Part shown: positions 13,600 through 29,880 of the stretch, in pieces
Numbering within the stretch: the first letter of the stretch is position 1
Layout: every line of letters starts with the position of its first letter
Origin: a virus
Length of the DNA: 31,064 nt
Virus record (IMG/VR): IMGVR_UViG_3300022752_004607
Coordinates: 1 to 31,064 of that record
Reading direction: 5' to 3' (one strand)
Notes under the pieces: model-generated
What the model was told of the DNA's origin: nothing
Databases searched by the model: none
Seen by the model: the letters and a program-made list of their open reading frames with translations, nothing else
Position numbers and translations under genes: made by a program

Positions 13600-13753
13600 A
13601 TTCTTCTACTTTAAAAACATTTAAAAAATCATCTACAGGCATTTGTTTAATATCTGCTGCTGTTACGATAGCATCATGTAGACTAGCTGCTTGAAGTTTG
13701 CCTACTGGTTCCTTTTTAGGATCTAGTATATTATAATATATGAATTGTTTCAT
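13568..13753 (-). CDS. Small protein of unknown function
   Basis: 61 residues (MKQFIYYNILDPKKEPVGK). One short alpha/beta module with a basic tail (EEYERRKIQKSK). The start overlaps the stop of the glycosyltransferase above as ATGA, marking the downstream end of the coupled glycan cluster. The next gene begins inside it. No family was recognised. Confidence 0.65.
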   Translation of the reverse strand: MKQFIYYNILDPKKEPVGKLQAASLHDAIVTAADIKQMPVDDFLNVFKVEEYERRKIQKSK

Positions 13754-14508: not shown

Positions 14509-15200
14509 ATTGTTTCGTGGTTTATTTTTTCCCAATTAATAGTTGGTGATAACAGCCCTTCCATACAATGTGTTGATAATCCAGGGATTGGGGAAAGGAT
14601 AAATCTAGATTTTTCTTCGGATATAGCTAACCATTTATTATGGTCACCTTCTAAAGATACATGGAAATTATAATCTTCTTTCCATAATTTTTTAAGGACA
14701 ATAAAACTTCCACAAGTGCTAGGAGTAGTTCTCCAATGACATTTATTTGAAACAAAAATCTTAGAAGTTAAATCATCATATAAAGGAAGAAAGTACTTAT
14801 CGTTATGGTCATAAAGAGTTAAATAATTTAATCCTTCAAAACAACTAAAAATATCTAAAACATATTCATCCCAATTATCAACATGAAGATAATCATTTTC
14901 TAAAAAATAAATCAAATCATCATCTTGGATAGTATCTAGGTCTAGAGCTATTTTAAACATTTGCCACCCCGCATCTCTCATATTACCTCCAGTTATTTCA
15001 TGAGAAATATATCGATCTTGGTATTTTTTAACCCAATTATCTTCAATTTTTCCATCCATAATCAAATGCAAATCTATATCTTTACCTTCTATAGTATTCA
15101 ATAGATTAATAAAACATTTTTCATAATCGAACCAATAGGGCCTTACTTTATTATCAGTTCCTGTGACATTATAATGGCTATAAAATATATGTATTTTCAT
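14505..15200 (-). CDS. Glycosyltransferase-like protein (GT-A)
   Basis: 231 residues, beginning MKIHIFYSHYNVTGTDN. A GT-A-like fold is suggested by the first strand and by DLIYFLENDYLHVDNWDEYV, where ENDY stands at the DxD position; later TCGSFIVLKKLWKED is typical of acceptor-side loops in sugar transferases. The DxD is weak (E-N-D), so activity or metal use may differ. It follows the propeller-type glycosidase gene by nine bases. Confidence 0.65.
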   Translation of the reverse strand: MKIHIFYSHYNVTGTDNKVRPYWFDYEKCFINLLNTIEGKDIDLHLIMDGKIEDNWVKKYQDRYISHEITGGNMRDAGWQMFKIALDLDTIQDDDLIYFLENDYLHVDNWDEYVLDIFSCFEGLNYLTLYDHNDKYFLPLYDDLTSKIFVSNKCHWRTTPSTCGSFIVLKKLWKEDYNFHVSLEGDHNKWLAISEEKSRFILSPIPGLSTHCMEGLLSPTINWEKINHETI

Positions 15201-15209
15201 ATTGTGAAT

Positions 15210-16139
15210 TTAATTAATTTTTTTACAAAATCCAAATCCTTCTTTACCGTATCCATTTCCACTATAAAACATTAGTAATTGTTTTTGGATTTCAATAATA
15301 TAAGGGTAACAAACCATTTCACTATCCCATCCATTTTCTGAATTAGTTATGGTATTGAGGTGATCTTGGCGTTCCCAATTTAATTTATCTAGGGATGAGG
15401 CATATCCCATTTTATAATTTTCTCCTTTATCAAGTTTTTCTCTATACCCATACCACATATGGTATTTATTATTTATTTTTTTAACACAAGGCGCACCTAA
15501 TGTTTCATTGTTATGGGTAGGGAAAACACAAACATTATCATTAAATTCCCAATCCAATCCATTAAATGATGTAGCAAATCTAATATCATATGTAGGTCTA
15601 TAATGGTTATTTATGTTAGCCCAAGAATTATAATGAGTATACCACATATTGAATTTTCCATTTTCAATAAGGATACTAGATTTAGCTACCCCAAATGGGG
15701 AAAAACGATTTAAACCTATAATAGGACCATCACTTATTTTTTGGAAATTAACTCCATCATCACTTAATGCTAATCCAAGAGTAGTAATATAAGGTACAGT
15801 ACTACTTCGTTGCCAACCTAAATAATATAACCAATATTTGTTTTTATAAAATAAAATTTCACTCATCATAGTACCATGTTCATCAAATGAACCGGGTTTC
15901 CCTAGGGAAAGTAATGGTTTGTTATGGATGGAGATAATTTTATTAGGGTCGTTTTTATCACAATCTAAAAAAGTAATTTTAGTTTCATAGTTTCCATTAT
16001 TATCTAAAATAGATCTAGTGGTAAAATATACCCTAATAAAATCATCAAATTCAATAGGACATACTTGAGCAGCATAATGGTTCATCCAATCAATATCTCC
16101 TTTAGGAGAAAATATTTGTCCTATTTTTGACCAATTCAT
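15210..16139 (-). CDS. Five-bladed beta-propeller glycosidase-like protein (GH43/GH32/GH130 type)
   Basis: 309 residues with repeated blade signatures: YWLYYLGW, FNMWYTHYNS, YHMWYGYREK and LLMFYSGNGYG. Family-like acidic positions are near DIDWMNHYAAQV at the N-terminus and SFDEHGTMMSE. Such proteins hydrolyse, phosphorolyse or transfer furanose or mannoside sugars. In polysaccharide gene clusters they are sometimes non-catalytic. No signal peptide, so it acts in the cell. The start overlaps the methyltransferase above as ATGA. Confidence 0.75.
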   Translation of the reverse strand: MNWSKIGQIFSPKGDIDWMNHYAAQVCPIEFDDFIRVYFTTRSILDNNGNYETKITFLDCDKNDPNKIISIHNKPLLSLGKPGSFDEHGTMMSEILFYKNKYWLYYLGWQRSSTVPYITTLGLALSDDGVNFQKISDGPIIGLNRFSPFGVAKSSILIENGKFNMWYTHYNSWANINNHYRPTYDIRFATSFNGLDWEFNDNVCVFPTHNNETLGAPCVKKINNKYHMWYGYREKLDKGENYKMGYASSLDKLNWERQDHLNTITNSENGWDSEMVCYPYIIEIQKQLLMFYSGNGYGKEGFGFCKKIN

Positions 16140-16705
16140 TTTTTAGTTATTTCAAGTATTATAGAGTCATATTGTCCTTTTTCTCTTAAATCAAAAACTT
16201 TATAATCACTTATATTTTCATCTACACTTTGCACTAAAAAATCTAATGATTCTTCAGGAGATAATTTATTGTCATTTTCATCTTTACACCCTATGTCTTC
16301 AATAATTAATTTCCCTCCAGATTTAAGTTTTTTAAACCAATGTTGAATTACATATTTTTGAGTTTCTGGGGTATGGGGGCCATCATCTATAATGAAATCA
16401 AAAGTATCATTTTCATATAAATCTAAAGCAAAATCAGTGTATGCATCTATTTTAGTAAAATGAATATTTGAATTAGATGGAATATATTGATCTATATCTA
16501 ATCCATAAATTTCTCCTTTAGTAAACCAACCACTCCACATTAAAAGTGATATACCTGATCTAATCCCTATTTCTAAAAGTTTAATATTTTGATGAGTTAA
16601 GTTATTGAAAACATTATCATAATATTCTGTTATATATGGGTGAGGGTCATATTTAGTATTATTAAACACTAAATTATTATTAATAACATATTCTGAAAGT
16701 TTCAT
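16136..16705 (-). CDS. Class I SAM methyltransferase
   Basis: 189 residues. Motif I is LLEIGIRSGISLLMWSG, followed by an acidic end of strand 2 (IYGLDID), motif for strand 4 FDFIIDDGPHTPETQ, and strand 5 GGKLIIEDIG. This is the Methyltransf_24 type found with sugar or macrolide methylases. It probably methylates a sugar hydroxyl. The start overlaps the dioxygenase gene by four bases (16705-16702). Confidence 0.85.
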   Translation of the reverse strand: MKLSEYVINNNLVFNNTKYDPHPYITEYYDNVFNNLTHQNIKLLEIGIRSGISLLMWSGWFTKGEIYGLDIDQYIPSNSNIHFTKIDAYTDFALDLYENDTFDFIIDDGPHTPETQKYVIQHWFKKLKSGGKLIIEDIGCKDENDNKLSPEESLDFLVQSVDENISDYKVFDLREKGQYDSIILEITKK

Positions 16706-17481
16706 TTATTTTTATTTTTTTTATCGTTATTTGCTTTTCTAATTAGCCTATAATCTAATGTAGATGTTGGAACCAATGAATCAAACCCCATTAACATATT
16801 TAAAAATGGATCCTTAGGTGCCTCAAAATTAAGCAATGCTGGGATGTCTATTTGTTGTTTGAATAGGTATTTAGTATATAAATGGTTAAGGCCTATTCTT
16901 TTTTCTTGGGAAATATTTATTCCTGTTCTATGGAATAGCATAGTATTAAATAAAAATACGGAACCTGCTTTTGATTCAATACTAATACCATGTTTAGAAA
17001 AATAATCGTCTGAAGGGATGTACTTGATTTTATGTGAATGGGGAAGTAATTGAGTAGCCCCTGTTTCAAAAGTAAAATCTGTAAGACAAAAGAAAGCATT
17101 TACTGCCAGTATAGGGTCACTTACATAATGCATGTTGGGGAAATCTCTATGCCATTTATTTTGACTATGAGTAAGATTTGGTTCAACCATTACTCCATTT
17201 TGTTGGCTTAAGATAAAATAATCTCCTAAAGTTTCTTTAATAAAAGGAATGATTTTAGGATTATTCAGTGTTTTATAAAAAACATCATCATAAGCGAATG
17301 GGGCCCTAACAATATTATTTTCAGCTATTTCTCTTATATCAAATTTATCCGAAACTTCTTGTTCTTGAATTTTCCAAGTTCTTTCAAGTTGAGTTATAAT
17401 TTCTTGAGTTTCTTCAGTTGTAAGAACATTTTCAATTAAAGTATAACCTAATATATCTAACTCTTCTAAATGATTTTTCAT
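16702..17481 (-). CDS. Phytanoyl-CoA dioxygenase-like Fe(II)/2-oxoglutarate oxygenase
   Basis: 259 residues. The Fe(II) triad is visible: H111-x-D113 in KWHRDFPN and H184 in MLFHRTGIN, with R195 (QEKRIGLNH) as the likely 2-oxoglutarate anchor. This PhyH family oxidises small molecules, lipids or sugars. In a glycan cluster it may hydroxylate or oxidatively tailor a sugar or its lipid carrier, but the substrate is unknown. Confidence 0.85.
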   Translation of the reverse strand: MKNHLEELDILGYTLIENVLTTEETQEIITQLERTWKIQEQEVSDKFDIREIAENNIVRAPFAYDDVFYKTLNNPKIIPFIKETLGDYFILSQQNGVMVEPNLTHSQNKWHRDFPNMHYVSDPILAVNAFFCLTDFTFETGATQLLPHSHKIKYIPSDDYFSKHGISIESKAGSVFLFNTMLFHRTGINISQEKRIGLNHLYTKYLFKQQIDIPALLNFEAPKDPFLNMLMGFDSLVPTSTLDYRLIRKANNDKKNKNK

Positions 17482-17491
17482 GGTTTATAAT

Positions 17492-18154
17492 TTAAAAATT
17501 AACTTCAAAAGCTATTTCATCCGTAAAGAACCAACAGTTATGGCAAAATATAACACGTTTATCTAATTTTTTAGCGCAGTCATTAACTGCTCTTTTAACA
17601 GAATCCCAAGTATAATCATCACCAGTTAATTGAGCATTAGGCCAATTTTCATAACACATCATAATATCTCTAGTTACTCCTTCGTAGCTATGGTCAGCAT
17701 CGATGAATATTAAGTCAACAGGTAGATCATATGGTTTAACACTTTCTAAACCTGTAGGAGTTTTAGCTCTTATTGGGGTTAGATGATTACGGTGTTCCCA
17801 AGTATTGTAGATGAATGAGTCCCAAATTTTAGGGAGTTGAAGTAACTCAGGATCATTTTCTGCATATGTAGTTGTTCCACCATTTCCATGATCATCTACA
17901 TTTGGACTCCAATGGTCAAAACATAGAATGTGGGAATCAGGAGCCTGTTCTAATAAGAATTTAGTTGAACCTGTTCCTGTCCAACTTCCTAATTCAGCAA
18001 TGAATCGAGGTTTTAACCCTTGTATAAAATGTTTTAATACAGCAGCACTAGCTCCTGTAAACCACCCATTCACTTCAGGCATAATGTCTGGTTTTTGATC
18101 AGGCCATTGATACAATGACTTTACTTGTTTGATTTGTTCTTTTAATTTATCCAT
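17492..18154 (-). CDS. Class I SAM methyltransferase (Methyltransf_24-like)
   Basis: 220 residues. Motif I is FIAELGSWTGTGSTKFLLE, then ILCFDHWSPN, and a characteristic VDLIFIDADHSYEGVTRD block as in macrocin O-methyltransferase relatives; the DADHSYE acidic cluster often binds a divalent metal. It likely methylates a sugar hydroxyl. It sits between the acyltransferase and the dioxygenase genes with a gap of only two bases on one side and ten on the other. Confidence 0.85.
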   Translation of the reverse strand: MDKLKEQIKQVKSLYQWPDQKPDIMPEVNGWFTGASAAVLKHFIQGLKPRFIAELGSWTGTGSTKFLLEQAPDSHILCFDHWSPNVDDHGNGGTTTYAENDPELLQLPKIWDSFIYNTWEHRNHLTPIRAKTPTGLESVKPYDLPVDLIFIDADHSYEGVTRDIMMCYENWPNAQLTGDDYTWDSVKRAVNDCAKKLDKRVIFCHNCWFFTDEIAFEVNF

Positions 18155-18156
18155 TT

Positions 18157-18801
18157 TTATTTGATTTTTTTGGCTGGGGAGCCTATATATGTGCTATTTG
18201 GTTCGGTTGATTTGGTTACTACACTTCCCATTCCTATTATACAATTTTCTTCTATAGTAACCCCATCTCTTATACAGGAATTAACTCCTAAAAATGCTCC
18301 TTTTTTAATATGGCAATGTCCTGATATTACAACATGGGAGGTAAAGAATACATTGTCTTCTATTATTGAATGGTGACCAATATGGTTTCCACTCCATAAT
18401 ACAACATTATTACCAATTATAGTAAAAGGTTGTAGGGTATTATCTTCTAATATAAAACAATTTTCTCTAATTTCGGAAGCAAGATTAGTACATTTTGATG
18501 AAATATAAGATGTAAATTTGTATCCCATTTCTTTCCCTTCATTGTATATTTTTTCCCTTAAAACATTATCAGTTACAGGAGCAAATAAATAATATTCAGA
18601 TGAAGGATATAATTCATTTAAATCTTCAAAAGGAATTACAGGGAGTCCTTTAAATGTATCTTCTTTAATAAATTCCTTATTGACAGTAAATGCAACGGGA
18701 AGTGAATTATTATGTCCTAATTTAAATTCATGAAAGAAATAAAAATGGGCTAATTCTGCTAAATCATTTACCCCAAAAATAATAATGTTATTTGTAAACA
18801 T
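18157..18801 (-). CDS. NeuD/PglD-like sugar O- or N-acyltransferase (left-handed beta-helix)
   Basis: 214 residues from ATG 18801 (MFTNNIIIFGVNDLAEL); starts at 18816 or 18843 are possible. An N-terminal Rossmann-like domain (NIIIFGVNDLAELAHFYF) is followed by hexapeptide repeats from about residue 115 (IIGNNVVLWSGNHIGHH, then VVISGHCHIKKGAFLGVNS, then GVTIEENCIIGMGSVV), ending IGSPAKKI. This is the layout of NeuD and PglD, which acetylate sialic or diamino sugars with acetyl-CoA. The start overlaps the end of the methyltransferase gene above by 14 bases. Confidence 0.85.
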   Translation of the reverse strand: MFTNNIIIFGVNDLAELAHFYFFHEFKLGHNNSLPVAFTVNKEFIKEDTFKGLPVIPFEDLNELYPSSEYYLFAPVTDNVLREKIYNEGKEMGYKFTSYISSKCTNLASEIRENCFILEDNTLQPFTIIGNNVVLWSGNHIGHHSIIEDNVFFTSHVVISGHCHIKKGAFLGVNSCIRDGVTIEENCIIGMGSVVTKSTEPNSTYIGSPAKKIK

Positions 18802-19399
18802 ATGCTGTGTATTCATAAAGTTTATAATCGTTTCTAATAACAAAATTTCTACTTAAGTTATTTTTCAAAAACCATCCTAATTCATCTAAAGAAACATGAA
18901 ATAAATCATCTCGTTCCCAATCAACATGTTTGGACATTAAATTAAAAGCTATTCCTTTATCACATTTATTCCATAGTTTAATCAATGCTGAGGTAAAGAA
19001 TTCCATCATTTCCTCTTGGGTTAAATCTCTTTTTTCTGTGAATGTTCCATTACATACAATGTAATCAAAATTAGGTAGATTATCTTCTTGTAAAATATCT
19101 AAACAATAAAAATCTAAGTATGGATACTTTGCTTTACAGGTATCACAAAACCCTTTACTAATGTCTAACCCAGAATATTTAATATGAGGTAAAAGAGTAG
19201 TTGACTTAATATATTCAAAGAAATGTCCTAACCCACACCCAAAATCAAGAAGCGAACAATCTTGTTCTTTAATCAATTCTAACATGACTTCATGGCGAAT
19301 TAAAGTATCTTGATAATTAGGCCAATCAACTCCTAAATTACTATCTCCATGTTCTTGAAAACATTTATCATAATGTTCTGCTAATTTTAGATATTTCAT
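18788..19399 (-). CDS. Class I SAM methyltransferase
   Basis: 203 residues. Motif I is LLDFGCGLGHFFEYI, the acidic end of strand 2 is YSGLDISKGF, then FDYIVCNGTFTEKRD and a helical tail. The Cys in DFGCG is typical of small-molecule methylases. It resembles ubiquinone/sugar methyltransferases. The gene overlaps the WbqC-like gene by four bases and its 3' end holds the start of the acyltransferase. Confidence 0.85.
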   Translation of the reverse strand: MKYLKLAEHYDKCFQEHGDSNLGVDWPNYQDTLIRHEVMLELIKEQDCSLLDFGCGLGHFFEYIKSTTLLPHIKYSGLDISKGFCDTCKAKYPYLDFYCLDILQEDNLPNFDYIVCNGTFTEKRDLTQEEMMEFFTSALIKLWNKCDKGIAFNLMSKHVDWERDDLFHVSLDELGWFLKNNLSRNFVIRNDYKLYEYTAYVYK

Positions 19400-20064
19400 A
19401 TAAGAGTGTAATTTTTAAGTTGTTGTTGAATGTGTTCTTTAGGGTATCTAAAAAGCAAATCAAGTATTGAAGCGTATGGGTTATCAAAATCAACATCCCC
19501 CATTTGTATAAATTTAAGATCTATATTTTGGATAGCAAAATCTTCTTTAGTGTATAATTTTTTACCCCCAATAGCATTTATATAAGTACTTCCATTAAAA
19601 TGTTTTGTTATATCTTGTAAACCTTCATTCTTTTTTCTAATGGTAAGGCCTTCCGAGGAATCTATTATTTGGGTTGTAATACCAAGATAGTTACATATTC
19701 GTTTAATATAAAATAGATTAACTTGGGAAATTGAATACCCAAAACTACTTACATCAGTGATAAAAATTTGTTGGATTATATCTTTAAAATTTTTTTCCTT
19801 ACCATATAAATTATGTAAAGTTTTAGGAAAATTAACTATAAATTTGCCATCAGATTTTACTATAACTTCATTGCACTTTTTATTTTGGCTACCCCCAATA
19901 ACAGGAATATTAATTTGAGTATTGTTTTTTAAAGTGTTTCTAGTCATGTAACTTCGTTTCATAAAATTCACATGATCTAAATTAACATATGTATCAACAG
20001 CATCTATAAGTTGAAAATAACCTATATAGGGGAAAAAATAAGGTTGCATTATTCCTACCTTCAT
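19396..20064 (-). CDS. WbqC-like protein
   Basis: 222 residues with the family's start MKVGIMQPYFFPYIGYFQLI and internal VDTYVNLDHVNFMKRSYMTRN, as in WbqC, a family in O-antigen and capsule clusters. Its biochemistry is unsettled; proposals include glycine or amino-acid transfer to sugars. Next to a DegT-type aminotransferase it may modify the amino group. It overlaps its neighbours by one and four bases, so all three are coupled. Confidence 0.9.
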   Translation of the reverse strand: MKVGIMQPYFFPYIGYFQLIDAVDTYVNLDHVNFMKRSYMTRNTLKNNTQINIPVIGGSQNKKCNEVIVKSDGKFIVNFPKTLHNLYGKEKNFKDIIQQIFITDVSSFGYSISQVNLFYIKRICNYLGITTQIIDSSEGLTIRKKNEGLQDITKHFNGSTYINAIGGKKLYTKEDFAIQNIDLKFIQMGDVDFDNPYASILDLLFRYPKEHIQQQLKNYTLI

Positions 20065-20699
20065 TATCTATTAGCTTTGGTATAAACTTCAAATTTAGAT
20101 AGATCTGGGTAAGGGAGTTCTAGATCTTGATTAATTTTTTTAGTCCCATCATTATTATAAAACTGGTTCATTAAAAGTAAACCTCGAGCAGCTAATTCAG
20201 GCATCATGTAAAAATTCCAACCTAACATGTCAAAATAATCTTCATGATATGAACATTCTCTACGACCTGAGTATCTAGCTCTTTTAAACCACATATAAGC
20301 ATCTTCATTATCTGTTAAGATAGCTCCACCTTTAGATAATTTAAAATGTTTATAGGGGCCTGTAAATGAAATACACATATGTGTTCCTGGTTTATACATG
20401 TCTGCAGTAAAGCATAAAGCAGAATCCCATACATTTGTTGGTTCTAATTGGTATGCTCCTTTAAGGAATTTTCCTTTAACAGGTTTAAATTTTACTTTCC
20501 CCCCAGCATGGATAATTTCACATGGAACTGAGGGATAAGTACGAGATGGGATTGTAATTTCTTGTCCTTTAATATTTTCATACATTAAAGCTAGGAATAA
20601 AGCATTTGATTGGTTATCTACAGTTACAACATAAGGTGCTCCTGTATAGTCTGAAAGTGCTTTTTCAAATTCAACTGTTATATCATATACGTTTTTCAT
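20064..20699 (-). CDS. Short DegT/DnrJ/EryC1-type PLP sugar aminotransferase
   Basis: 211 residues, against about 370-400 for the family. The N-terminal PLP domain is complete: DNQSNALFLALMY, a PSRTYPSVPCEIIHAGG substrate-side strand, and the lysine block SFTGPYKHFKLSKGGAILT with K117 as the likely PLP lysine. The usual C-terminal small domain is missing, and no frameshift is evident because the next gene begins cleanly. It could work as a homodimer, act as a sensor, or be a fragment. AGGTTATG start. Confidence 0.75.
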   Translation of the reverse strand: MKNVYDITVEFEKALSDYTGAPYVVTVDNQSNALFLALMYENIKGQEITIPSRTYPSVPCEIIHAGGKVKFKPVKGKFLKGAYQLEPTNVWDSALCFTADMYKPGTHMCISFTGPYKHFKLSKGGAILTDNEDAYMWFKRARYSGRRECSYHEDYFDMLGWNFYMMPELAARGLLLMNQFYNNDGTKKINQDLELPYPDLSKFEVYTKANR

Positions 20700-20711
20700 A
20701 ACCTAAATATA

Positions 20712-22256
20712 TTAATTTTTTAATGAATTTCCAAATTTGTTTAATTCATTTTGAAAATTTTCATGAGCTATTTTTTTAAATTCATCCTGTCTATTTATTA
20801 CTTTTAAATAGTTTTTATATGGGTTAAATCTAAATAATTGATCTTCTACTACTACTTCATTTTCAAGAATGTACTGGGTGATAGGGGTTCCATTTTGTTT
20901 GAGCATTTCAAAGCAACACATCAAATATGTGTCTTCTAATCCATAATGTCCTAATTCTTTAGGTATATTCACCATTTTAGCTAATTCAGAACTAATAACT
21001 GTAGCTAAACCACCTCCAAATTTAAAAATACTTATAGGTTGGAGACTAACATCACCAAAACAATTAGAATATCTATATGGGTCTCTAAATTTAAATAAAT
21101 CTCCAGATTGTTCATGGTGGTAACTTGGATGTACTAATACTTTCCAACTATCATCCCATAATGGGGAAATTTGAGGAGTTAAAATATAGTAAGGATTTTC
21201 TATTACTTTAATAGAACTAAGAACATGGAATAATAGATACGGGGATATTACAATATCAGCATCTATGGTAAGAAGAGCTTTTGAATTAGTATTTTTAATA
21301 ACCTCTCTTCTATGAGAAACACATCCTAAAATTGTTTGGTTATCATTTGCTTTAAAATCAGTAATTGCCCAAGTTTTAGTTAAACGTTCTAGTTGAAATA
21401 ATTTATCAACAAAATATGATTTAGGGAATGTTGAATTATCCCAATCTACTAAATTTAAATTTAATAAAACATCAACTAATATAGTGTCTTCTTCTGTTAA
21501 AAATTTAGAATTGTGTTTTAATTGTGTTAAAAGAACTTCTAATTGATCAATTTCATATGGCATTACATGAATTAATATATGTAGATCAATTTCATTTAGT
21601 ACTTCTTTACATTTTTTTACAAAACGATTTGTATGTTCACTATTATTTCTAGATTCAAAATTATGAAATATTAAGTCTTCATATGTGCTAGCAATGCCAA
21701 AATATGTTTCATTTTTTAAAGGCCAATATGGGACTTCACAATTTGAAAATTTAAAAAATTTAATTTCAATACCTTTTTCTCTACTAAGATAACTAAGTTC
21801 CTCAGCAACATCACTTCTAAGAGTTTCATTGTATGCAGGTTGTCCTAATTCGTTATACGTTTCTTTAGAAATAGCAAAACAAGCAGGACCAGCATATGGG
21901 ATAGTATCAGGTAAACGGTTTGAATGTTGTTCAATTCCTATAATAGCATGTTTTCCATGGATTCGATCAAGAATTACATCTATGAAATTAGATTTTAATG
22001 GAATAGCATCTGCATCAAAGAATATTAAATAATCAACATCTTCATTTCGAGAAAGTTCTGTTAATAATGTTCCATGTGAATTAAATCCTTTATTAAGTAA
22101 ATTAGGTTCTACTAGGATTTGATTAATTTCAATACCAAATTTATCAAATACTTTCTTTTGATAAGAAATAAATCTAGGATCTAAACTAGCAAAGTATGCT
22201 GTGTAAATACCTATTTTAAAATCTTTTCCATTTCTAATTATGTGATTATATTTCAT
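20712..22256 (-). CDS. Two-domain glycosyltransferase (two GT-A units)
   Basis: 514 residues. The first half has a GT-A start (KIGIYTAYFASLDPRFISY) and metal site FFDADAIP; the second has ALLTIDADIVIS and GLEDTYLMCCFEM, a typical GT2 acceptor/base motif. Two DAD sites mean two active sites, probably adding two residues in turn, like bifunctional chondroitin or capsule polymerases. Its start overlaps the GT2 gene above by four bases and it lies 12 bases before the aminotransferase. Confidence 0.75.
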   Translation of the reverse strand: MKYNHIIRNGKDFKIGIYTAYFASLDPRFISYQKKVFDKFGIEINQILVEPNLLNKGFNSHGTLLTELSRNEDVDYLIFFDADAIPLKSNFIDVILDRIHGKHAIIGIEQHSNRLPDTIPYAGPACFAISKETYNELGQPAYNETLRSDVAEELSYLSREKGIEIKFFKFSNCEVPYWPLKNETYFGIASTYEDLIFHNFESRNNSEHTNRFVKKCKEVLNEIDLHILIHVMPYEIDQLEVLLTQLKHNSKFLTEEDTILVDVLLNLNLVDWDNSTFPKSYFVDKLFQLERLTKTWAITDFKANDNQTILGCVSHRREVIKNTNSKALLTIDADIVISPYLLFHVLSSIKVIENPYYILTPQISPLWDDSWKVLVHPSYHHEQSGDLFKFRDPYRYSNCFGDVSLQPISIFKFGGGLATVISSELAKMVNIPKELGHYGLEDTYLMCCFEMLKQNGTPITQYILENEVVVEDQLFRFNPYKNYLKVINRQDEFKKIAHENFQNELNKFGNSLKN

Positions 22257-22876
22257 AACTGGTCGTATAACTGATTTTGTTTTTCTTGTCGTTTAATTGT
22301 TTTTGAATGATAAAGTGCAAAGTATTCTACATCGGGCATTGCTGTATACTGTTTAAAACCATCTAAACGCTCGTGTACTTTATTTACCCATACGATTTCA
22401 GGTTTATTTTTCCAAATACGCCATTGGTAATCAGGCCAATTAACCCATCCAGCATCGTTTACTCTCCAGCCCCATTTTTGAATGTGTTCGGAAGTTAAAC
22501 CTTCTACTGTGTTTACTCGGGGTACTAGAAAAACATCAACTTCGTTGTTTTCTTCTAATACTTCAGGTAACACAGCAATCAGATTTTCGTTAGGAATTTC
22601 ATCAGCATCAATTTGAAAAATATAATCGCCATTACAAAAACCAGATAATTTGTTTTTCCAGTCTGCAAAGTGGCGATCAAATTTTCCTTTGTGCCAAGAG
22701 AACTCACCGTTTATAGAATGGGTTCTTAAGAAATTTTCCACTTCGGGGTCACCATTTGCTTCATCAAATAAAATTACTATATTGTCTTGTATACGTTTGT
22801 GTTGAAGCAAAAAATTCACTAAACGTTGAATTTCAACAAATTCATTACAGACTGTGATTGCATAACTAATTTTCAT
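22253..22876 (-). CDS. Glycosyltransferase family 2-like
   Basis: 207 residues beginning MKISYAITVCNEFVEIQRLV, with DYIFQIDADEIPNENL (DAD metal site) and VNWPDYQWRIWKNKPEIVWV, a pattern seen in GT2 enzymes of the WaaE/KdtX kind that add heptose or glucose to LPS cores. It is shorter than WaaE. Acts in the cytoplasm on a nucleotide sugar. Confidence 0.85.
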   Translation of the reverse strand: MKISYAITVCNEFVEIQRLVNFLLQHKRIQDNIVILFDEANGDPEVENFLRTHSINGEFSWHKGKFDRHFADWKNKLSGFCNGDYIFQIDADEIPNENLIAVLPEVLEENNEVDVFLVPRVNTVEGLTSEHIQKWGWRVNDAGWVNWPDYQWRIWKNKPEIVWVNKVHERLDGFKQYTAMPDVEYFALYHSKTIKRQEKQNQLYDQL

Positions 22877-22881
22877 ATATC

Positions 22882-23346
22882 TTATTCAGGTAATATCCCA
22901 ATATAAGAAAGAGCTTCAATATAGTCACGCTCTTCAAACATTTTCATGTTTTTCATATCCATTTTGAATTTCATAAATTCTCCTGGTTTTCCTGGAATTG
23001 GGTGTTTTTCTCTGTCTTCTTCAGGGATTTCAATAGCTTTAACAGCTGCCCACCCCCAATTTGAAATACTTGAACCATTAGCAAACACCATACCTTGCTC
23101 AGGATTGTTAATAGTGTTTGGTAACCATATTAATCCTGTTTCAGGATCAGTCCAAGCTAAATCTTTATACAATTCAGGTAACGTTTCCATTTGTTGTTTG
23201 TAAAACTCATGGTCTTCGGTCATAAATGAGTTTGTCCAAAATCCACAAGATAAACTCATGTAGTTATATATTTCAGGGGCAACCTGTACTTTATAGCACA
23301 AGTTACCTCCTGATTTAGGGCAGTCAATTATTTCTTCGTGTTGCAT
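22882..23346 (-). CDS. Unknown protein within the glycan island
   Basis: 154 residues, with no family recognised. A pair of cysteines in IIDCPKSGGNLCYKV could bind metal, and an N-terminal part is rich in aromatic residues (YNYMSLSCGFWTNSFM). The acidic and Met-rich C-terminal half (MKFKMDMKNMKMFEERDYIE) is probably helical. It overlaps the start codon of the 430-residue glycosyltransferase by one base, so it belongs to the same transcript, but it shows no carbohydrate motif. Confidence 0.7.
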   Translation of the reverse strand: MQHEEIIDCPKSGGNLCYKVQVAPEIYNYMSLSCGFWTNSFMTEDHEFYKQQMETLPELYKDLAWTDPETGLIWLPNTINNPEQGMVFANGSSISNWGWAAVKAIEIPEEDREKHPIPGKPGEFMKFKMDMKNMKMFEERDYIEALSYIGILPE

Positions 23347-24638
23347 TAGGCTTCTACTTTTTTAAGTTTTGGTAATTCAATTTTTTTCAACTTAGGTAAC
23401 TGTAATTGTACCTGTTTTGGAAATTCAGGAATTTTATCTTCAAACAATTTACCTAATTTTTCTTTCATAGCATCAAATGAAAATTTGGTACGTGATTGAA
23501 AACCTTGTCGTTTTGCTTTTTCAGCATATCCTTTATAGTTTTCAAATACATCTTTTAAATAACTTCCTACATGACCTGTATCAACACTAAACCATTCTGC
23601 ATCCGCTAATAACATATTGTTTGCTGCTGAAGGGTGTACTTTGGTTAAGTTACCTGGTAAAAGTGTAACAAATTCAGGGTTTAAATAGTCAATATGGCCA
23701 CTCCAATTTGTTGTAATGATTGGTTTATTTACTAATGAAAATTCAAGTAATGGACGACCAAATCCTTCTCCTTTAGTTAAATTAACCATTGCTTTAACTT
23801 TAGGGTGGTTATAGATTTCGTTCATTTCTACATCTGTAAATTCACCATGTAACAAATAAACGTTTGGTAAATTATTTGATCTTACTGTTGCTTTAATTGC
23901 TTGAATACGTTTAATTAATTCATCTCTATCTATATAAGAGGATCCTACAGTTGATGTTTTTAAAATCAAGGCAGGTTTTTTAGTTTTGTTTTTAAACGTT
24001 TCGTAAAACGCTTTTACTAATAATCCTACATTTTTTCTATCTTCACCTAAATGTCCTTGCATCCAATGTCCTACAAACAAATAAGCAAATTCTTCTTTTA
24101 CATTCGATAAATCAAATGTTGATTTTACGGGGGTATATTTTTCAGTGTCTGCACCTTCAAAAATTACTTCACTATCACCTTTCCATTCAATAAACCCTAC
24201 TGTTTGGTTTGTTTGTTGATCGCGTTTTTCAAATTTACTTTCTTTTAATACTTTAATAGTATGTTCAGAAGAACCTAAAATTAAATTCATCCGTGAACAA
24301 CCTTCAATCCATTCAGCGGGTGCAACTGTTGTTTCAATTCCAGCTGTACATCCAATATTGTATTTTCCTACTGGTTGAAATTCATTTGGAACTGTAATTT
24401 GCATCCAAATTTCAGGTTGTGATGGTAATTGTGGTTGTTGTAAGATATGACTCACTAAAAATTCCCACTCTGGATTATCTTTAATAAATCCAAATGGAGT
24501 ATTTCCCCATCGTTGAGGTGCAATTTTTACATCATACTTATCTAGTTCAATAATCGCTTTAACGATATCGCGAGAACGTGCTCCATATCCTGAATATGTG
24601 TCGATAGGGCAGCTTATTACAAATGTTGGTTTACTCAT
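23346..24638 (-). CDS. GT-B glycosyltransferase (GT4-like)
   Basis: 430 residues. The C-terminal half has the GT4-type donor site VNLTKGEGFGRPLLEFSLVNKPI, with the E-x7-E spacing, plus FVGHWMQGHLGEDRKNVGLL typical of the loop after the first strand. It carries an N-terminal PIDTYSGYGARSRDIVKA, an acceptor-domain motif. The C-terminal tail contains repeats of lysine, leucine and proline (KKIELPKLKKVEA). Follows the 479-residue GT by five bases. Confidence 0.85.
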   Translation of the reverse strand: MSKPTFVISCPIDTYSGYGARSRDIVKAIIELDKYDVKIAPQRWGNTPFGFIKDNPEWEFLVSHILQQPQLPSQPEIWMQITVPNEFQPVGKYNIGCTAGIETTVAPAEWIEGCSRMNLILGSSEHTIKVLKESKFEKRDQQTNQTVGFIEWKGDSEVIFEGADTEKYTPVKSTFDLSNVKEEFAYLFVGHWMQGHLGEDRKNVGLLVKAFYETFKNKTKKPALILKTSTVGSSYIDRDELIKRIQAIKATVRSNNLPNVYLLHGEFTDVEMNEIYNHPKVKAMVNLTKGEGFGRPLLEFSLVNKPIITTNWSGHIDYLNPEFVTLLPGNLTKVHPSAANNMLLADAEWFSVDTGHVGSYLKDVFENYKGYAEKAKRQGFQSRTKFSFDAMKEKLGKLFEDKIPEFPKQVQLQLPKLKKIELPKLKKVEA

Positions 24639-24643
24639 AACTT

Positions 24644-26083
24644 TTAATATACAAATTCGTGATCAATTGTGTCTTCTTTAACTTCATTAACGTTGATTAA
24701 CTCATATTTTTCTCGCGGAGTCCACGTGTTAAATAATTTATCTATCGCGTGAATTGCTCTAACTCCCATATGTTCTCCTGTAAAACCTGCTTCATTTACA
24801 GCCCAATGTCTTCCTGTTTTACCAAGTTCTTTTCTCAGTTTTCTATCCAACGCATATACTTCAGAAATTCGTGCTGCTGCGTCTTCAGCAGTACATCTAT
24901 CATCCCAAATATAAGGTGTTTTAGGTGAACCTTGAATTGAGCGGTTTGTTGGATAAACCGGAAACGCCCATGAACCATGGTTTTTGTAACGGCCTGTATG
25001 ATTTGAAGGTATTTTTGGTGATGGTGTATACCAGTTTCCATATTCATCTTCAAAACGCATTTGATCTTGCATGCCACCTGTTACGTTTGCTATAATTACA
25101 GTTCCTGCTAACATTGCTTCTGTTAATGATAACCCCCAACCTTCATTTGAAGTCAATAATATTTGAGCATCTGCAATGTTGTAAAGTTGGTTTAACTGTT
25201 TGTTGTTTAACTTATTTGTTGAAAAATAAATTGCTTTAGGGTATTTTGGAAACAATACTTTTCTAACTGCTTCTAAATCTGTTCCATGTTCGCTTACAAT
25301 TTCGGTATGCATTACCATAGCACATTTGTCTGCTTTTTCTTTTGGTAATGTATCTAAAAACAATCTAAAAGCTAACATTGTATCCGGAATTTGTTTACGT
25401 CGAATGTTTCTTGAATTAAAAAACACTACAAAATCCTTTTCCTCGTCTCCAAAAATTTGTTTTTTAAACGCTTCAAGTTCTTTTAATTCATTTTCCTTTT
25501 CAATCGGATAGTACATTTCATGGTTTAATCCATGAGGAACATAGTGAATCACTTTGTTTTTAGCTTTTTCACCTAAAACAAGTTCATTGATTAACCTTGT
25601 TTGTTTTGAAATTGCTAGTAACGCATCACACGACTCGTAAAATGCTTTGTTATACAACGGTGCCGGATAATCATCCCAGATGTTCAAATAAATGATTGGC
25701 ATTTGTTTTCTAATCTCGTTTTCAATTTGAAATAACCATTCAAAATACCTTGGATCAGTAATTAACATGATTGCATCTGGTTGTTCAATTGAAATTAACT
25801 GACGGATCAAATCTGGGTTTCCATATCCATCAACCGGATACAAGAAAACAGAAGCATCTGTTAAACCTGTGTTTGCGTCGGTGTCTTTAGAAATGTCAAA
25901 TCGTTTTCCTTTTTCAGGATGATTTATTGCTCCTGCAATGTTAACCCAATTAAAATGTTGGGCTGTGTTTAAAACTAATTCGCGTGCTACTGTAGCTACA
26001 CCGGAGTGTACTCTAATGTCGTCGCAAATTAGCATGATTTTTTTCCGCTCGTTTTGCGGTAGGTACTTAAAACTTGAATTCAT
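24644..26083 (-). CDS. GT-B glycosyltransferase (GT4-like), first gene of the island
   Basis: 479 residues. GT4 landmarks: KIMLICDDIRVHSGVATVAR (N-terminal strand and loop), YVPHGLNHEMYYP (donor loop), and LLTSNEGWGLSLTEAMLAGT (E-x7-E donor site). Its ATG at 26083 follows 32 bases after the ribbon-helix-helix gene. It may transfer the first sugar of a chain. No signal peptide, so it is cytoplasmic. Confidence 0.85.
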   Translation of the reverse strand: MNSSFKYLPQNERKKIMLICDDIRVHSGVATVARELVLNTAQHFNWVNIAGAINHPEKGKRFDISKDTDANTGLTDASVFLYPVDGYGNPDLIRQLISIEQPDAIMLITDPRYFEWLFQIENEIRKQMPIIYLNIWDDYPAPLYNKAFYESCDALLAISKQTRLINELVLGEKAKNKVIHYVPHGLNHEMYYPIEKENELKELEAFKKQIFGDEEKDFVVFFNSRNIRRKQIPDTMLAFRLFLDTLPKEKADKCAMVMHTEIVSEHGTDLEAVRKVLFPKYPKAIYFSTNKLNNKQLNQLYNIADAQILLTSNEGWGLSLTEAMLAGTVIIANVTGGMQDQMRFEDEYGNWYTPSPKIPSNHTGRYKNHGSWAFPVYPTNRSIQGSPKTPYIWDDRCTAEDAAARISEVYALDRKLRKELGKTGRHWAVNEAGFTGEHMGVRAIHAIDKLFNTWTPREKYELINVNEVKEDTIDHEFVY

Positions 26084-26356: not shown

Positions 26357-27292
26357 TTAATAGGTCGCAGAACATAAATGAGTCTTATAAAATGGACAAT
26401 ACTTGCAATTATCGTTTATTTTTGGTTGGTGTTCAACTTGTTTGTAACCGTTGCGATCAAATGCTTGTTCTATAAATTCTTCAATTGATTTGGTGACTTT
26501 GTTTAGTTTTACTTTACCCGACGCGGGTTTGTACCATTGTATGCGTTTAATTGTAAATTGTTCGCTTTCAAATATTTTACGTTTTACAATCATAAACTCT
26601 ACTTCTACATTTTCTATTGGTACGTTGTATAGTTCCGAATAGTATTTTTTGTATAGAATAAGTTGAAATTGCTTTTGTTCGTTTGATTTTTCTTTTTTAC
26701 TCCAACCTTGTCTACTTGTTTTAATGTCTATGATTTTAAATGTGTTTGTTGGTTCATGGTATAAAACAACATCTAAAAACCCTTGAAACATTATGTTTTG
26801 TAGTTTAGAGTTTGGAGTTAGTATAATAGGTATTTCACATCCAACTAAATGCCATCCTCGTTTGCCAAAATGTTTACCTTTTTCTTTTGCTATTTCTCTT
26901 ATAATCTCTACTCCATCTTCATAGAACTCTTTAAGTTCATCTGGGGAAACAAAGTGTTGGTTGTTGTTTGCTTTGTATTGGGCTTTGTATTCGTTGCGGA
27001 GTTTTTCTTCTAGCATTTCAGCAGTGTTAAGGCGGTCTGCTGCTGCTCCACTTTGTTCATACATTACTGTAAGGTAATGTTGAAGTACTTCGTGTAGTGC
27101 GGTTCCAAAAATTGTGTGAATGGAAGAAGTGAATTGTTTGTGTCCTTCTCTATATTGGAGTGACCATTTTTTAGGGCACTCATTGAACATAGACATTTGA
27201 GAGTATGAAATGGATTTTTGAGTTGCGTAATCAATTTCGGGTAAAACCTTAGTTTTTATCTCTTTTAAGATAGAAGGCAACTTTTTTTTCAT
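26357..27292 (-). CDS. PD-(D/E)XK nuclease, Cas4/AddB-like, with apparent Fe-S cysteine set
   Basis: 311 residues. The catalytic set is visible: H67-E68 (TALHEV), E153 (GCEIP), D174 (GFLDVVLYHE), and D189-x-K191 (IIDIKTS). Four cysteines fit an Fe-S cluster: C39 (FNECPKKW) and C296, C299, C307 in the C-terminal NCKYCPFYKTHLC. RecB-family exonucleases of this kind trim DNA ends in phage recombination and packaging. ATG 27292 lies close behind a strong terminator; its leader would be about 12 bases. Confidence 0.85.
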   Translation of the reverse strand: MKKKLPSILKEIKTKVLPEIDYATQKSISYSQMSMFNECPKKWSLQYREGHKQFTSSIHTIFGTALHEVLQHYLTVMYEQSGAAADRLNTAEMLEEKLRNEYKAQYKANNNQHFVSPDELKEFYEDGVEIIREIAKEKGKHFGKRGWHLVGCEIPIILTPNSKLQNIMFQGFLDVVLYHEPTNTFKIIDIKTSRQGWSKKEKSNEQKQFQLILYKKYYSELYNVPIENVEVEFMIVKRKIFESEQFTIKRIQWYKPASGKVKLNKVTKSIEEFIEQAFDRNGYKQVEHQPKINDNCKYCPFYKTHLCSATY

Positions 27293-27303
27293 TACCTAAA
27301 GAT

Positions 27304-27331
27304 AAAAAAAAGCCTGCCAATAGGCAAGCTT
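27304..27331 (-). terminator. Rho-independent terminator, twin 1
   Basis: Minus strand: a 9-bp stem (27331-27323 with 27318-27310, one G-U) closing TATT, followed by seven T at 27310-27304. It ends the 27350-28003 gene and is nearly identical to the terminator at 28015-28042. Confidence 0.9.
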
Positions 27332-27349
27332 TTCTATAAAAATTTTTTA

Positions 27350-28003
27350 TTAAAGTTGGGATTCAATATAATCTTTTACTTCTTGACTTACATCATCAGC
27401 ATCTGGGAATTCATCATCAAATTCAACTAAGATATTATCTATAATGTCGGTATCAAAGAACCCTGCATCTATTAAGTCTTCTAACTTTCCATCTTTTTTA
27501 GCACTTTGAATAGCATCATCAATGTATGCCTTTATTTTTGAAGTTAATGGGATTTCATCTGGGGATTCATCTTCAGGTTTTTCATAAAAATCTTCTATAA
27601 CTTTTCTATACATTCCTATGGTGATACCTTCAATTGGGACATTTGGGTTACCTAGTGATTCATAATCATCTTCTGTTCCTGGGTAAGCAAAGTCAGTAAA
27701 CTCACCAGCCACATCCAAAGATTCTTCACCATATCCTAAAAATTCACAAAATTTAACTACATTTTCATGAATCCATAGATATTCATAGTCGTCATCATAA
27801 AGATCTTCAGGAGTTCTTTTTCTAAATAATATCCCAAGTGCTTTATTTCTGTCATCAAACATGGTGTTAGAAGCTTCATTTAATTTAGCTTTATATTGAC
27901 TTTCAGTAATGATACCAGCCAACATTTGCATACGTAATAGTTCTTGTGTCATTTTATCTAGATTTTTATTATACATATGAGCAACTGTTAATTTGTTTAC
28001 CAT
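27350..28003 (-). CDS. Putative virion-internal protein with shared N-terminal motif, acidic
   Basis: 217 residues. Residues about 23-44 read LRMQMLAGIITESQYKAKL, a motif shared with the proteins at 28069 and 28900. After it the protein is acidic (DLYDDDYEYLWIHENV, FDDEFPDADDVSQEV) and has no membrane segment. The I-T-E site within the motif fits the (I/L)xE cleavage pattern of T4 prohead protease, so it might be a capsid-targeting sequence removed on maturation. Bounded by terminators at both ends, so it is a self-contained unit. Confidence 0.65.
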   Translation of the reverse strand: MVNKLTVAHMYNKNLDKMTQELLRMQMLAGIITESQYKAKLNEASNTMFDDRNKALGILFRKRTPEDLYDDDYEYLWIHENVVKFCEFLGYGEESLDVAGEFTDFAYPGTEDDYESLGNPNVPIEGITIGMYRKVIEDFYEKPEDESPDEIPLTSKIKAYIDDAIQSAKKDGKLEDLIDAGFFDTDIIDNILVEFDDEFPDADDVSQEVKDYIESQL

Positions 28004-28014
28004 ATGTTAAAGAT

Positions 28015-28042
28015 AAAAAAAAGCCTGCCGGTAGGCAAGCTT
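28015..28042 (-). terminator. Rho-independent terminator, twin 2
   Basis: Minus strand: 9-bp stem (28042-28034 with 28029-28021, one G-U) with loop TACC, followed by eight T at 28022-28015. It ends the 28069-28632 gene. Only two loop bases differ from twin 1, and the flanks match too. Confidence 0.9.
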
Positions 28043-28068
28043 TTCTTAAATTTTATTCTATTTTAAAA

Positions 28069-28632
28069 TTATCTTTGTGATTCAACTTTAGCCATTTTAA
28101 TAAATTCTGGGTCTTTTCTTAGGTCGGTAACTACAGCTTTTACTAAGACTTTCATGTCTTTTTCATCAACTTCTTTAGGGTCTAATCCTTTTGCTTTTAA
28201 TTCTTTATTAACTAGTATTCGAGCTTCTTCTTCAACATAGTTTCTTAAATTAGCATTTCTTTCCCATTTCATATATCCAACTACAGCTCCAATAATTCCT
28301 CCAGCTAATGCAATAGCTCCAGCTATTACTTCTGGTCCTTCTGCTGTTGATGTAAGATAATCTTCATCAAGTTTAACTTCATCTATTAAATCCATAGATT
28401 TTTCAACTTCATTAGGATTTACTCCAAATTCTCTAGCTAAGTCAAATGCAACTTTATCTAAGTTTACTCCTTCTTCTGCTTCATCCATTTTTCTTTTATA
28501 TTGACTTTCAGTAATAACTCCAGCTAACATTTGCATGCGCAACATTTCATGTTGTGCAATTTGGTTTTGTACATTAGCTAATTTTGTTTTTAAAATTTTA
28601 GCTTCTTTTAATAATTGGTTTTTTGATTTCAT
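28069..28632 (-). CDS. Putative virion-internal protein with shared N-terminal motif and a glycine-rich membrane helix
   Basis: 187 residues. The motif LRMQMLAGVITESQYKRK lies at about 31-48, after a coiled-coil leader (QLLKEAKILKTKLANV). A membrane-like, GxxxG-rich helix VIAGAIALAGGIIGAVVGYM sits near residue 105. The rest is charged and helical. A hydrophobic helix in a motif-bearing protein fits an internal virion protein ejected into the host membrane. A weak promoter-like GGAATT with TATATT (about 28640-28675) precedes it. Confidence 0.65.
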   Translation of the reverse strand: MKSKNQLLKEAKILKTKLANVQNQIAQHEMLRMQMLAGVITESQYKRKMDEAEEGVNLDKVAFDLAREFGVNPNEVEKSMDLIDEVKLDEDYLTSTAEGPEVIAGAIALAGGIIGAVVGYMKWERNANLRNYVEEEARILVNKELKAKGLDPKEVDEKDMKVLVKAVVTDLRKDPEFIKMAKVESQR

Positions 28633-28666
28633 TTTTTGTTTGTTTTTCTAATATACATATATGATT

Positions 28667-28900
28667 TTACTTAATAATTCCAGCTCGTATTTGAAGCATT
28701 TTAATTTCTTCAATATTTTCAGGAGAACTAACAATCATGTTATAGTCATTCATAGTTAATACTTTTCCTGAAAGTGCTAAACCGATTGCGTTTTCTGTTA
28801 CGTTATGTAGGTCTATATCGGTTTGAGCATCTTCTCTAGCGTATTCGAGTAAACGAATAAATAGAGGGACGTCTACTGTGATTGTATCTCTTTGGTTCAT
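28667..28900 (-). CDS. Small helical protein of unknown function
   Basis: 77 residues (MNQRDTITVDVPLFIRLLEY). A compact all-helical fold similar to small phage proteins of this length. Its last residues IKMLQIRAGIIK resemble the LRMQMLAGIITE motif of its neighbours, possibly by chance. The start codon shares one base with the stop of the 319-residue gene (TAATG), so it is coupled. Confidence 0.7.
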   Translation of the reverse strand: MNQRDTITVDVPLFIRLLEYAREDAQTDIDLHNVTENAIGLALSGKVLTMNDYNMIVSSPENIEEIKMLQIRAGIIK

Positions 28901-29859
28901 TATTTGTTTAGTTTTCCGTACATTACTGCACCTGCTACTTTTTTACCTGCTTCTTCTGAGCCATATTTTTTAGCAGCTGATTTGGCAATTTTTTCAAAGT
29001 TTTTACCTTTTTCACCAATGTCTTTTCCTGCTCTTGCTTTTTTAGCCATTGCAGAACGTTCTTTGAATGTACCTGGTTTTTTACCTTCTTCTAAATCTTC
29101 AATTAAACCTAAATCTTGAGCTATTGATTGGGCTAATGATTGAAGATCAATATTATTTTTACCAGTACCCATGTTCCAAACATGTTCTAATGTGTTTTCA
29201 AGGTAAGCAACTGCATTATCTGGGGAGACTCTAGCTTCATTTACTTCTTTATCTTCACGAAAAATAGCACCTACAGTAGCTCCAATTCCAGAAGCAACTA
29301 AAACTGCATCTATAATTTCATTAGGAGTATTAGTACCTAAAGGTCCAGCCATTAATGCTCCAAGCAAACCAAGAGCAGCGGCTGATAGGCCTACACGAAT
29401 TCCTTTTTCTTTTAAATAGGTTTTAAAATCTACTTCTTTTTCATTCCCATAAGCATCTTCAGTGTAAAATTTACCATTTTTTCTAAAGGCTTCATTTACA
29501 TTTTGAAGAACATCTCCAATTTCATCTTCTTTATCTTTTAACTCTTTAGCTTCATCAGGATTAGTTTTAAGGTAGCTTACTAATTTATTAAAAGCTGGGT
29601 TGTTTTTAATTGCTGGGTCAATGTTGGCTTCATTTTCATTCAAACCATATTTTTGGCCTAAGAAATGTTCAAAAGCATCTTCGTATACTTCTTTAGTACG
29701 AGATGGGATTTGATTGATTGCTCCAATTCCTACAATTCCACCTGCAACGTAGTGTTCGTTTAGGGAATTTTTTTGAGTAGCTTCTTCTAATTTTGCTTTA
29801 TATTCGCTTTCTGTGATTACACCTGAAAGCATTTGCATACGTAAAGTTTCTTTATCCAT
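28900..29859 (-). CDS. Putative virion-internal protein with shared motif and membrane segments
   Basis: 319 residues. The motif LRMQMLSGVITESEYKAKL is at the very N-terminus (6-24). Two hydrophobic stretches, VGLSAAALGLLGALMAG (about 157-173) and IIDAVLVASGIGATVGAIF (about 182-200), are separated by a short loop. The C-terminus is basic and Ala/Gly/Lys rich (SAMAKKARAGKDIGEKGK), as in DNA-binding tails. This mix suits an internal or ejected virion protein. No known family. Confidence 0.65.
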   Translation of the reverse strand: MDKETLRMQMLSGVITESEYKAKLEEATQKNSLNEHYVAGGIVGIGAINQIPSRTKEVYEDAFEHFLGQKYGLNENEANIDPAIKNNPAFNKLVSYLKTNPDEAKELKDKEDEIGDVLQNVNEAFRKNGKFYTEDAYGNEKEVDFKTYLKEKGIRVGLSAAALGLLGALMAGPLGTNTPNEIIDAVLVASGIGATVGAIFREDKEVNEARVSPDNAVAYLENTLEHVWNMGTGKNNIDLQSLAQSIAQDLGLIEDLEEGKKPGTFKERSAMAKKARAGKDIGEKGKNFEKIAKSAAKKYGSEEAGKKVAGAVMYGKLNK

Positions 29860-29880
29860 TTTAATATTTTATTATAAATA

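Follow-up and report, generated by a model that had tools for sequence, protein, structure and literature searches.

Three neighbouring genes in IMG/VR record IMGVR_UViG_3300022752_004607, a 31-kb fragment that we analysed in its entirety (31,064 nt; hereafter, the window), encode proteins that carry a common peptide tag near their N-termini, with the consensus (M-x-x-E-x-)L-R-M-Q-M-L-(A/S)-G-(I/V)-I-T-E-S. A clamp-loader gene (phrog_225) marks the window as a piece of a T4-like phage. Our comparison with related phages found the core of this tag at the C-terminus of the head scaffold, and we consider it very probable, on the sequence evidence given below, that the tag is a capsid-targeting propeptide that copies the scaffold's C-terminal docking tail and is removed by the prohead protease. 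A first-pass annotation of the window had proposed a capsid-targeting tag, and this proposal is supported by the scaffold C-terminal motif, genes for an S77 protease and gp23, the pattern at P1′ (the residue after the candidate cut), the exchange of leaders within one protein family, and an upstream motif shared with structural genes. The tag appears to be a variant form of the T4-type capsid-targeting sequence (CTS), previously unreported; a literature search that covered few subscription papers found no earlier mention of this tag, of tags that copy scaffold tails or of a virion-delivered Acb1.

Phage proteins that are carried in the head and injected are mostly unknown beyond a few model phages. 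If the reading given here is true, tag families would provide a genome-only means of listing virion-delivered proteins, from metagenomes, and would hint at the origin of capsid-targeting signals.

The tag is carried by many unlike proteins

The three window copies lie at 27894–27931, 28499–28536 and 29801–29838, all on the minus strand, so that the N-terminal motif described in the first pass is located in every case, with a chance expectation of zero (0.00 matches to a degenerate DNA pattern of the tag in 100 dinucleotide shuffles). The tag DNA also emerged blind, as an imperfect 88-nt direct repeat with 69–76% identity. Apart from the motif the proteins are unlike, as had been claimed, and none of the three has a Pfam or PHROG match above threshold or anything solid in PADLOC; hydrophobic segments, earlier called membrane-like, are present in two of them.

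At least 120 viral stretches in IMG/VR match the degenerate DNA pattern, and bacterial and archaeal genomes (257 Gb) contain one match. This sole cellular match, L270 (CANGUP010000043.1), lies in a 22.6-kb contig of a Flavobacteriaceae metagenome-assembled genome, perhaps a binned phage contig. The carriers are T4-like phages, whose hosts we infer to be aquatic Bacteroidetes. The 216 distinct tagged proteins fall into approximately 100 cargo clusters without detectable mutual similarity, a count that is rough because single-linkage chained one cluster of 82 proteins, probably via a second common N-terminal segment (SLNEHYVAGGIVGIGAINQIPSR). Larger contigs carry up to five tags. The motif lies inside the first 60 residues in 188 of 212 proteins, and it also occurs C-terminally and internally; one 926-amino-acid (aa) protein has it at both ends. 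These internal and C-terminal copies often have (L/I)xE on either side, as in LNE/SFLKMQKLAGVITE/A (slashes mark candidate cuts here and below). Conservation of the fixed letters follows from the search pattern itself, which placed no constraint on the residue after ITE, on the L-R that precedes M-Q or on most later residues.

The three window genes lie close together and their tag regions are alike at the DNA level, as would be expected of recent paralogues, without targeting function, whose N-termini were preserved as the remaining sequence diverged. However, the same tag is carried by approximately 100 clusters without detectable similarity, and its C-terminal, internal and two-ended copies also speak against paralogy, which we regard as the least probable of the explanations considered, to the point of being negligible. 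Chance paralogy was rejected because the motif is common to the scaffold and present at C-termini. Conservation of the tag, while the rest of the proteins is not conserved, argues for selection on the tag itself.

Scaffold proteins end in the tag core

In the cultured relative Flavobacterium phage immuto (NC_055915), which has gene types in common with the window (for example, a PD-(D/E)XK nuclease beside glycosyltransferases), the tagged protein gp083, encoded at 111675–112139, starts with MKKQILSEQFRRMQKLAGIITES, and gp067, whose open reading frame (ORF) is flanked by the genes for gp070, the prohead protease, and gp066, the major capsid protein, ends in SEVSEQVSRWQKLAGIIK before the stop codon. 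A gp21-like protease had been named in the first pass as something to look for: contigs of tag-carrying relatives that hold the head region encode Peptidase_S77 and a gp23-type capsid protein (10 and 9, respectively, of 30 large tag-carrying contigs, many of which are fragments). The scaffold is complete in nine tag contigs, and the tag core forms its C-terminus in all nine, for example PIVESNEAFLRMQKLAGII followed by the stop. When loci were found by using only the capsid protein as bait, the upstream ORF ended in R[MFW][QKR]xLA in 79 of 79, and 72 of the 79 have a strict LAG with at most five residues at the scaffold end; a typical scaffold C-terminus reads R-M-Q-K-L-A-G-I-I-stop.

A profile hidden Markov model (HMM) of 14 columns, built from N-terminal tags only and stopping before T-E, was used to search a set of 5,112 ORFs in which seven T4-like head regions (T4, RB49, S-CAM1, Vibrio, Aeromonas, Rhizobium and Erwinia) served as controls. 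It ranked tagged proteins first, then scaffold C-termini (E values including 1.2e-6, 8.6e-6, 1e-4 and 4e-4) together with a small number of other proteins tailed at the C-terminus, with no scaffold from the seven control regions among the matches listed. The motif is absent from the scaffold C-termini of T4, RB49, S-CAM1, Vibrio, Rhizobium and Aeromonas; T4 gp22 ends in VSVYAKVASRF and the scaffold of cyanophage S-CAM1 in AMAQYLQAINRWNS. Because scaffold C-termini match the tag core and are retrieved by this HMM, we interpret the tag as the scaffold tail put on other proteins.

The tag also has the pattern G-x-(I/V)-T-x-x-E-(F/Y), which resembles that of SHOCT (PF09851), and 12 of 104 tagged proteins give weak PF09851 matches, several in register with the tag. 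It could therefore be a SHOCT-like helical hairpin for oligomerization or general protein contact in the infected cell, independent of the capsid. The best of these matches reach approximately 12–16 bits against a Pfam gathering cut-off of 27, and SHOCT membership was rejected on this score. Unlike SHOCT, the tag is N-terminal rather than C-terminal and phage-specific, being nearly absent from cellular genomes, and a SHOCT-like role leaves unexplained a motif that closes every scaffold protein; we judge it highly improbable.

A candidate prohead protease site adjoins the motif

The T4 prohead protease gp21 cleaves after L/I-x-E (PMC9026906). The first-pass annotation had matched the I-T-E of the tag to this rule, and an (I/L)xE-type site is indeed kept across families: of 100 family representatives, 94 contain I-T-E and 89 have S, G or A at P1′, although a binomial test on P1′ was not taken as a probability, the tags being homologous. 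Scaffold tails have a PI(V/I/M)E/S-like [ILV]xE site on their body side in 73 of 79 cases, so that in either orientation, N-terminal tag or scaffold tail, an [ILV]xE-type site lies next to the motif on its body side. Capsid proteins of tag-type phages contain QLVVE/S, the positional counterpart of the T4 gp23 site. A second (L/I)xE often follows the tag site ([ILVM]xE within 13 residues in 73 of 100), and cutting may therefore occur at one or both sites.

Leaders are exchanged in an Acb1-like cargo family

One tagged family, found in related phages outside the window, consists of Acb1-like 2H phosphodiesterases; it scores 29.2 bits for PF23474, above the cut-off of 27, and has both HxT motifs (HCT and HMT). 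Its structural model, with a predicted local distance difference test (pLDDT) score of 89.5, has a confident domain from approximately residue 25 and a low-confidence junction at residues 11–20. The best Foldseek matches to the model are a poxvirus cyclic GMP-AMP phosphodiesterase (E 8.6e-6) and several from phages, among them Acb1 (7t27, E 5.6e-5); a Protein Data Bank sequence search with this family and one other cargo gave no matches. The family thus resembles the anti-CBASS (cyclic-oligonucleotide-based antiphage signalling system) nuclease Acb1 in domain, HxT motifs and modelled structure, and differs from it in having a tag-like leader before the domain and in that its activity and virion presence are predictions. 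The cargo is predicted to destroy CBASS cyclic nucleotides, a bacterial alarm molecule.

The tag, in its LAGI form, is present in 6 of 34 Acb1-like homologues (L414–L418 and L428 tagged; L419–L452 with other leaders; also G014, 148412). Other leaders in the same slot include MKTIKDFITE/K, MKKLIDVLTE/A, MISLRSLLAE/A and MIIKNYIQFIKE/S. An [ILV]xE lies within nine residues of the domain in 21 of 21 non-redundant leaders, compared with 5.8 on average, and 14 at most, in shuffles; these leaders were chosen by hand, and proteins without a placeable start were left out. Because both kinds of leader occur in one slot, the LAGI tag fills the same position as T4-CTS-like leaders. Each phage lineage has a different short leader ended by (I/L)xE, which suggests that the enzyme is commonly delivered by virions, and we predict such delivery for an anti-CBASS-type phosphodiesterase.

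On contig G062, which holds Acb1-like locus L435, the Acb1-like leader also opens at least nine additional ORFs (MKHIKLFEDFLNEA, MKHIKLFEQFISEA and MKHIKLYEEFVTEA among them), a count well in excess of that for shuffled leaders; MKHIKLFEDFLNE is an example of the tag of this lineage. These ORFs start with MK(H/N)(I/V)(K/Q)L(F/Y)E-x-F-(L/I/V)-x-E-(A/S), for instance at 33706, 46354 and 54262–55930, and form a second, independent tag family with several genes in succession. Other repeated N-terminal peptides, such as LRQ(L/I)I(R/K)E and F(D/N)(L/M)K(K/Q)FL(V/M)EN, occur near head genes in L180 and L206–L215 and may be further tags of the same phages.

An upstream motif is shared with structural genes

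The motif TAT[TG]TATAA lies 12–48 nt upstream of 78 of 181 tagged genes, compared with 238 of 2,325 ORFs in the whole set, which contains structural genes too; before tagged genes it takes the form TATTTATAATAAAA or TATGTATAATAAAA. In immuto, it precedes the portal, sheath, tube and tail spike genes, and several others of the structural region, by 18–33 nt, whereas the 12–48 nt upstream of approximately 30 untagged early or metabolic genes checked contain no copy. Tagged gp230 (25061–25456) alone has the motif among the early and metabolic genes checked; the primase has a looser match only, 88 nt upstream. In the window, the motif precedes the genes of proteins 1 and 3, and a variant precedes that of protein 2. 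This distribution suggests that tagged genes are expressed late, together with head genes, the motif being a putative promoter. A sigma-70 promoter scan gave matches no more numerous than in shuffles.

A candidate late-promoter motif, TATTTATAA(T/A)AAA, recurs in Flavobacterium T4-like phages (immuto 120597, 146993, 149172 and others; window 29866–29880). It is similar to the T4 late promoter, TATAAATA.

Cleaved propeptide or retained docking signal

Several observations weigh against the cleaved capsid-targeting propeptide. The window's own head genes and scaffold are out of view because the record is a 31-kb fragment. Conservation extends beyond the proposed cut into S-x-Y-K-x-K-L-N-E, more than simple cleavage after ITE would require, and the scaffold tail stops before T-E. 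Within genomes, covariation of the tag with the M/W/F variant of the scaffold was not seen (G047 and immuto scaffolds have RWQ and their tags RMQ), and two large contigs (170 and 136 kb) have the scaffold tail and no tag. Approximately half of the tagged genes are without the promoter motif. Our search turned up neither virion proteomics nor N-terminal sequencing for any tagged phage, and a study of related Flavobacterium phages shows no mass spectrometry.

The conservation past ITE would fit a scaffold-derived signal that docks proteins into the prohead or onto its core and is retained uncleaved, with ITE-S as the helix cap (T-x-x-E/Q) of a helix-turn-helix. A single-sequence model of protein 3 has this shape, with a helix at residues 2–10 that leads through a turn at LSGVI into a second helix starting at residue 16 (mean pLDDT 75–81 over residues 1–20; overall pLDDT 47.9, so that the model is usable only for the N-terminal 20 residues), and the P22 scaffold docks to coat protein by a C-terminal helix-turn-helix (PMC9962691). 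Yet the first helix suffices for the scaffold tail, the [ILV]xE site stands on the body side of the motif in both orientations, and the other leaders in the Acb1-like slot share [ILV]xE only, not the second helix. We therefore consider retention of the tag unlikely, albeit the most serious competitor to its removal.

Under the cleaved-propeptide reading, tagged cargo would be made late in infection and would dock by the helix L-R-M-Q-x-L-A-G-I-I at the site for the scaffold tail in the growing prohead. The docking partner would be the capsid protein or the core, which is the least certain step. A gp21-type protease would then cut after I-T-E and free the mature cargo inside the head, where it would be packaged with DNA for delivery at the next infection. 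Docking, cleavage, packaging and ejection are all proposed here from sequence patterns. On balance we favour, with some reserve, the wider view that a scaffold docking tail has turned into a transferable label that loads a large, fast-changing set of proteins (approximately 100 families), including a predicted CBASS-messenger-destroying enzyme, into the virion. As such proteins would be pre-made, they could provide counter-defence from the first moment of infection. The roughly 100 unlike families, mostly without known function, are candidate virion-delivered proteins for host takeover or counter-defence.

Comparison with known systems

The T4 CTS, carried by IPI, IPII, IPIII and Alt, is likewise a short N-terminal peptide on unlike proteins that ends in an (L/I)-x-E gp21-type site. 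It loads proteins into the prohead core, and its known cargo includes an anti-restriction protein (PMC9026906; PMC9391042). The present tag differs in sequence, equals the scaffold C-terminal tail and may be C-terminal or internal; moreover, whereas virion presence and cleavage are established for the T4 CTS, the present tag is known from sequence alone. We know of no similarity between the tag and the IPIII CTS beyond the xE site.

In P22, fusion of the scaffold's C-terminal coat-binding domain to a cargo brings the cargo into the shell (PMC9962691). As is proposed for the phages studied here, the capsid-docking element is at the scaffold C-terminal end, but the P22 scaffold is unrelated in sequence and the cargo fusion is a man-made laboratory encapsulation tag. 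To our knowledge, P22 has no gp21-type cleavage step.

In the giant phages SPN3US and phiKZ, inner head proteins have N-terminal propeptides that are cut after x-x-E by the prohead protease, and one pair of diverged giant-phage proteins has an identical N-terminus (PMC5694885). Several of these propeptides exceed 100 residues, their motif in SPN3US is A-x-E and they are not known to be linked to a scaffold, all of which sets them apart from the present tag.

The tagged gene cluster of the window

The features of the cluster are as follows, with E values from the tag HMM.

27279–27351, no strand: 73-nt direct repeat, copy 1, downstream of gene 1, with a terminator-like hairpin at 27306–27335
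27350–27952, minus strand: tagged protein 1, 200 codons plus stop, corrected start MTQELLRMQ...
27902–27952, minus strand: tag of protein 1, MTQELLRMQMLAGIITE/S (E 2.1e-7), with a putative cut after ITE
27964–27977, minus strand: late-promoter-like motif TATGTATAATAAAA upstream of protein 1
27990–28062, no strand: 73-nt direct repeat, copy 2 (77% identical), downstream of gene 2, with a terminator-like hairpin at 28016–28047
28069–28632, minus strand: tagged protein 2, 187 aa, with hydrophobic segment VIAGAIALAGGIIGAVVGYM
28507–28545, minus strand: tag of protein 2, MLRMQMLAGVITE/S (E 6e-5)
28649–28659, minus strand: variant late-promoter-like motif TATGTATATTA upstream of protein 2
28667–28900, minus strand: 77-aa protein with a C-terminal motif copy, between two tagged genes
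28670–28711, minus strand: C-terminal tail EEIKMLQIRAGIIK of the 77-aa protein, up to the stop, a degenerate motif copy
28900–29859, minus strand: tagged protein 3, 319 aa, with many relatives alike only over residues 1 to approximately 75
28903–29088, minus strand: basic C-terminal module of protein 3, 60 aa
29809–29859, minus strand: tag of protein 3, MDKETLRMQMLSGVITE/S (E 1.3e-6)
29866–29880, minus strand: late-promoter-like motif TATTTATAATAAAAT upstream of protein 3

Protein 1 probably starts at 27952 and not at 28003, and the longer 217-aa ORF is likely to be an artefact; the start was moved because the ‘MYNKNLDK’ codons ahead of it amount to an in-frame reading of the promoter-like DNA TATGTATAATAAAA. 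Two homologues resemble protein 1 beyond the tag, and the other 18 of 20 loci have only the tag region in common with it. In protein 2, the tag occupies residues 30–42 after a 29-aa extension, which is also found in locus L017; a search for further relatives of this protein found none.

The first-pass annotation had raised the prospect of more tagged genes, and one lies within the cluster itself: the 77-aa protein ends in a degenerate copy of the motif (...IKMLQIRAGIIK, then stop). Its homologue in contig G003 has an intact end (...EEIKKMQRLAGIIK, then stop; E 4.1e-6), and four consecutive window genes therefore bear the motif, close to the N-terminus in three of them and C-terminally in the other.

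The basic module of protein 3 recurs in uncultured huge phages (595–735 kb) and also closes an unrelated 532-aa protein of Synechococcus phage S-SRM01. Tagged gene 1 is bracketed by the two 73-nt repeat copies, an arrangement that resembles T4-type stem-loop cassettes, which are thought to move genes around in T4-type phages.

Elsewhere in the window, the 768-aa protein encoded at 7888–10194 contains repeats, probably has a signal peptide and looks like a host-type secreted protein. As in immuto, there is also a run of glycosyltransferase, methyltransferase and sugar-modification-like genes, which here spans 12 kb (13750–26083).

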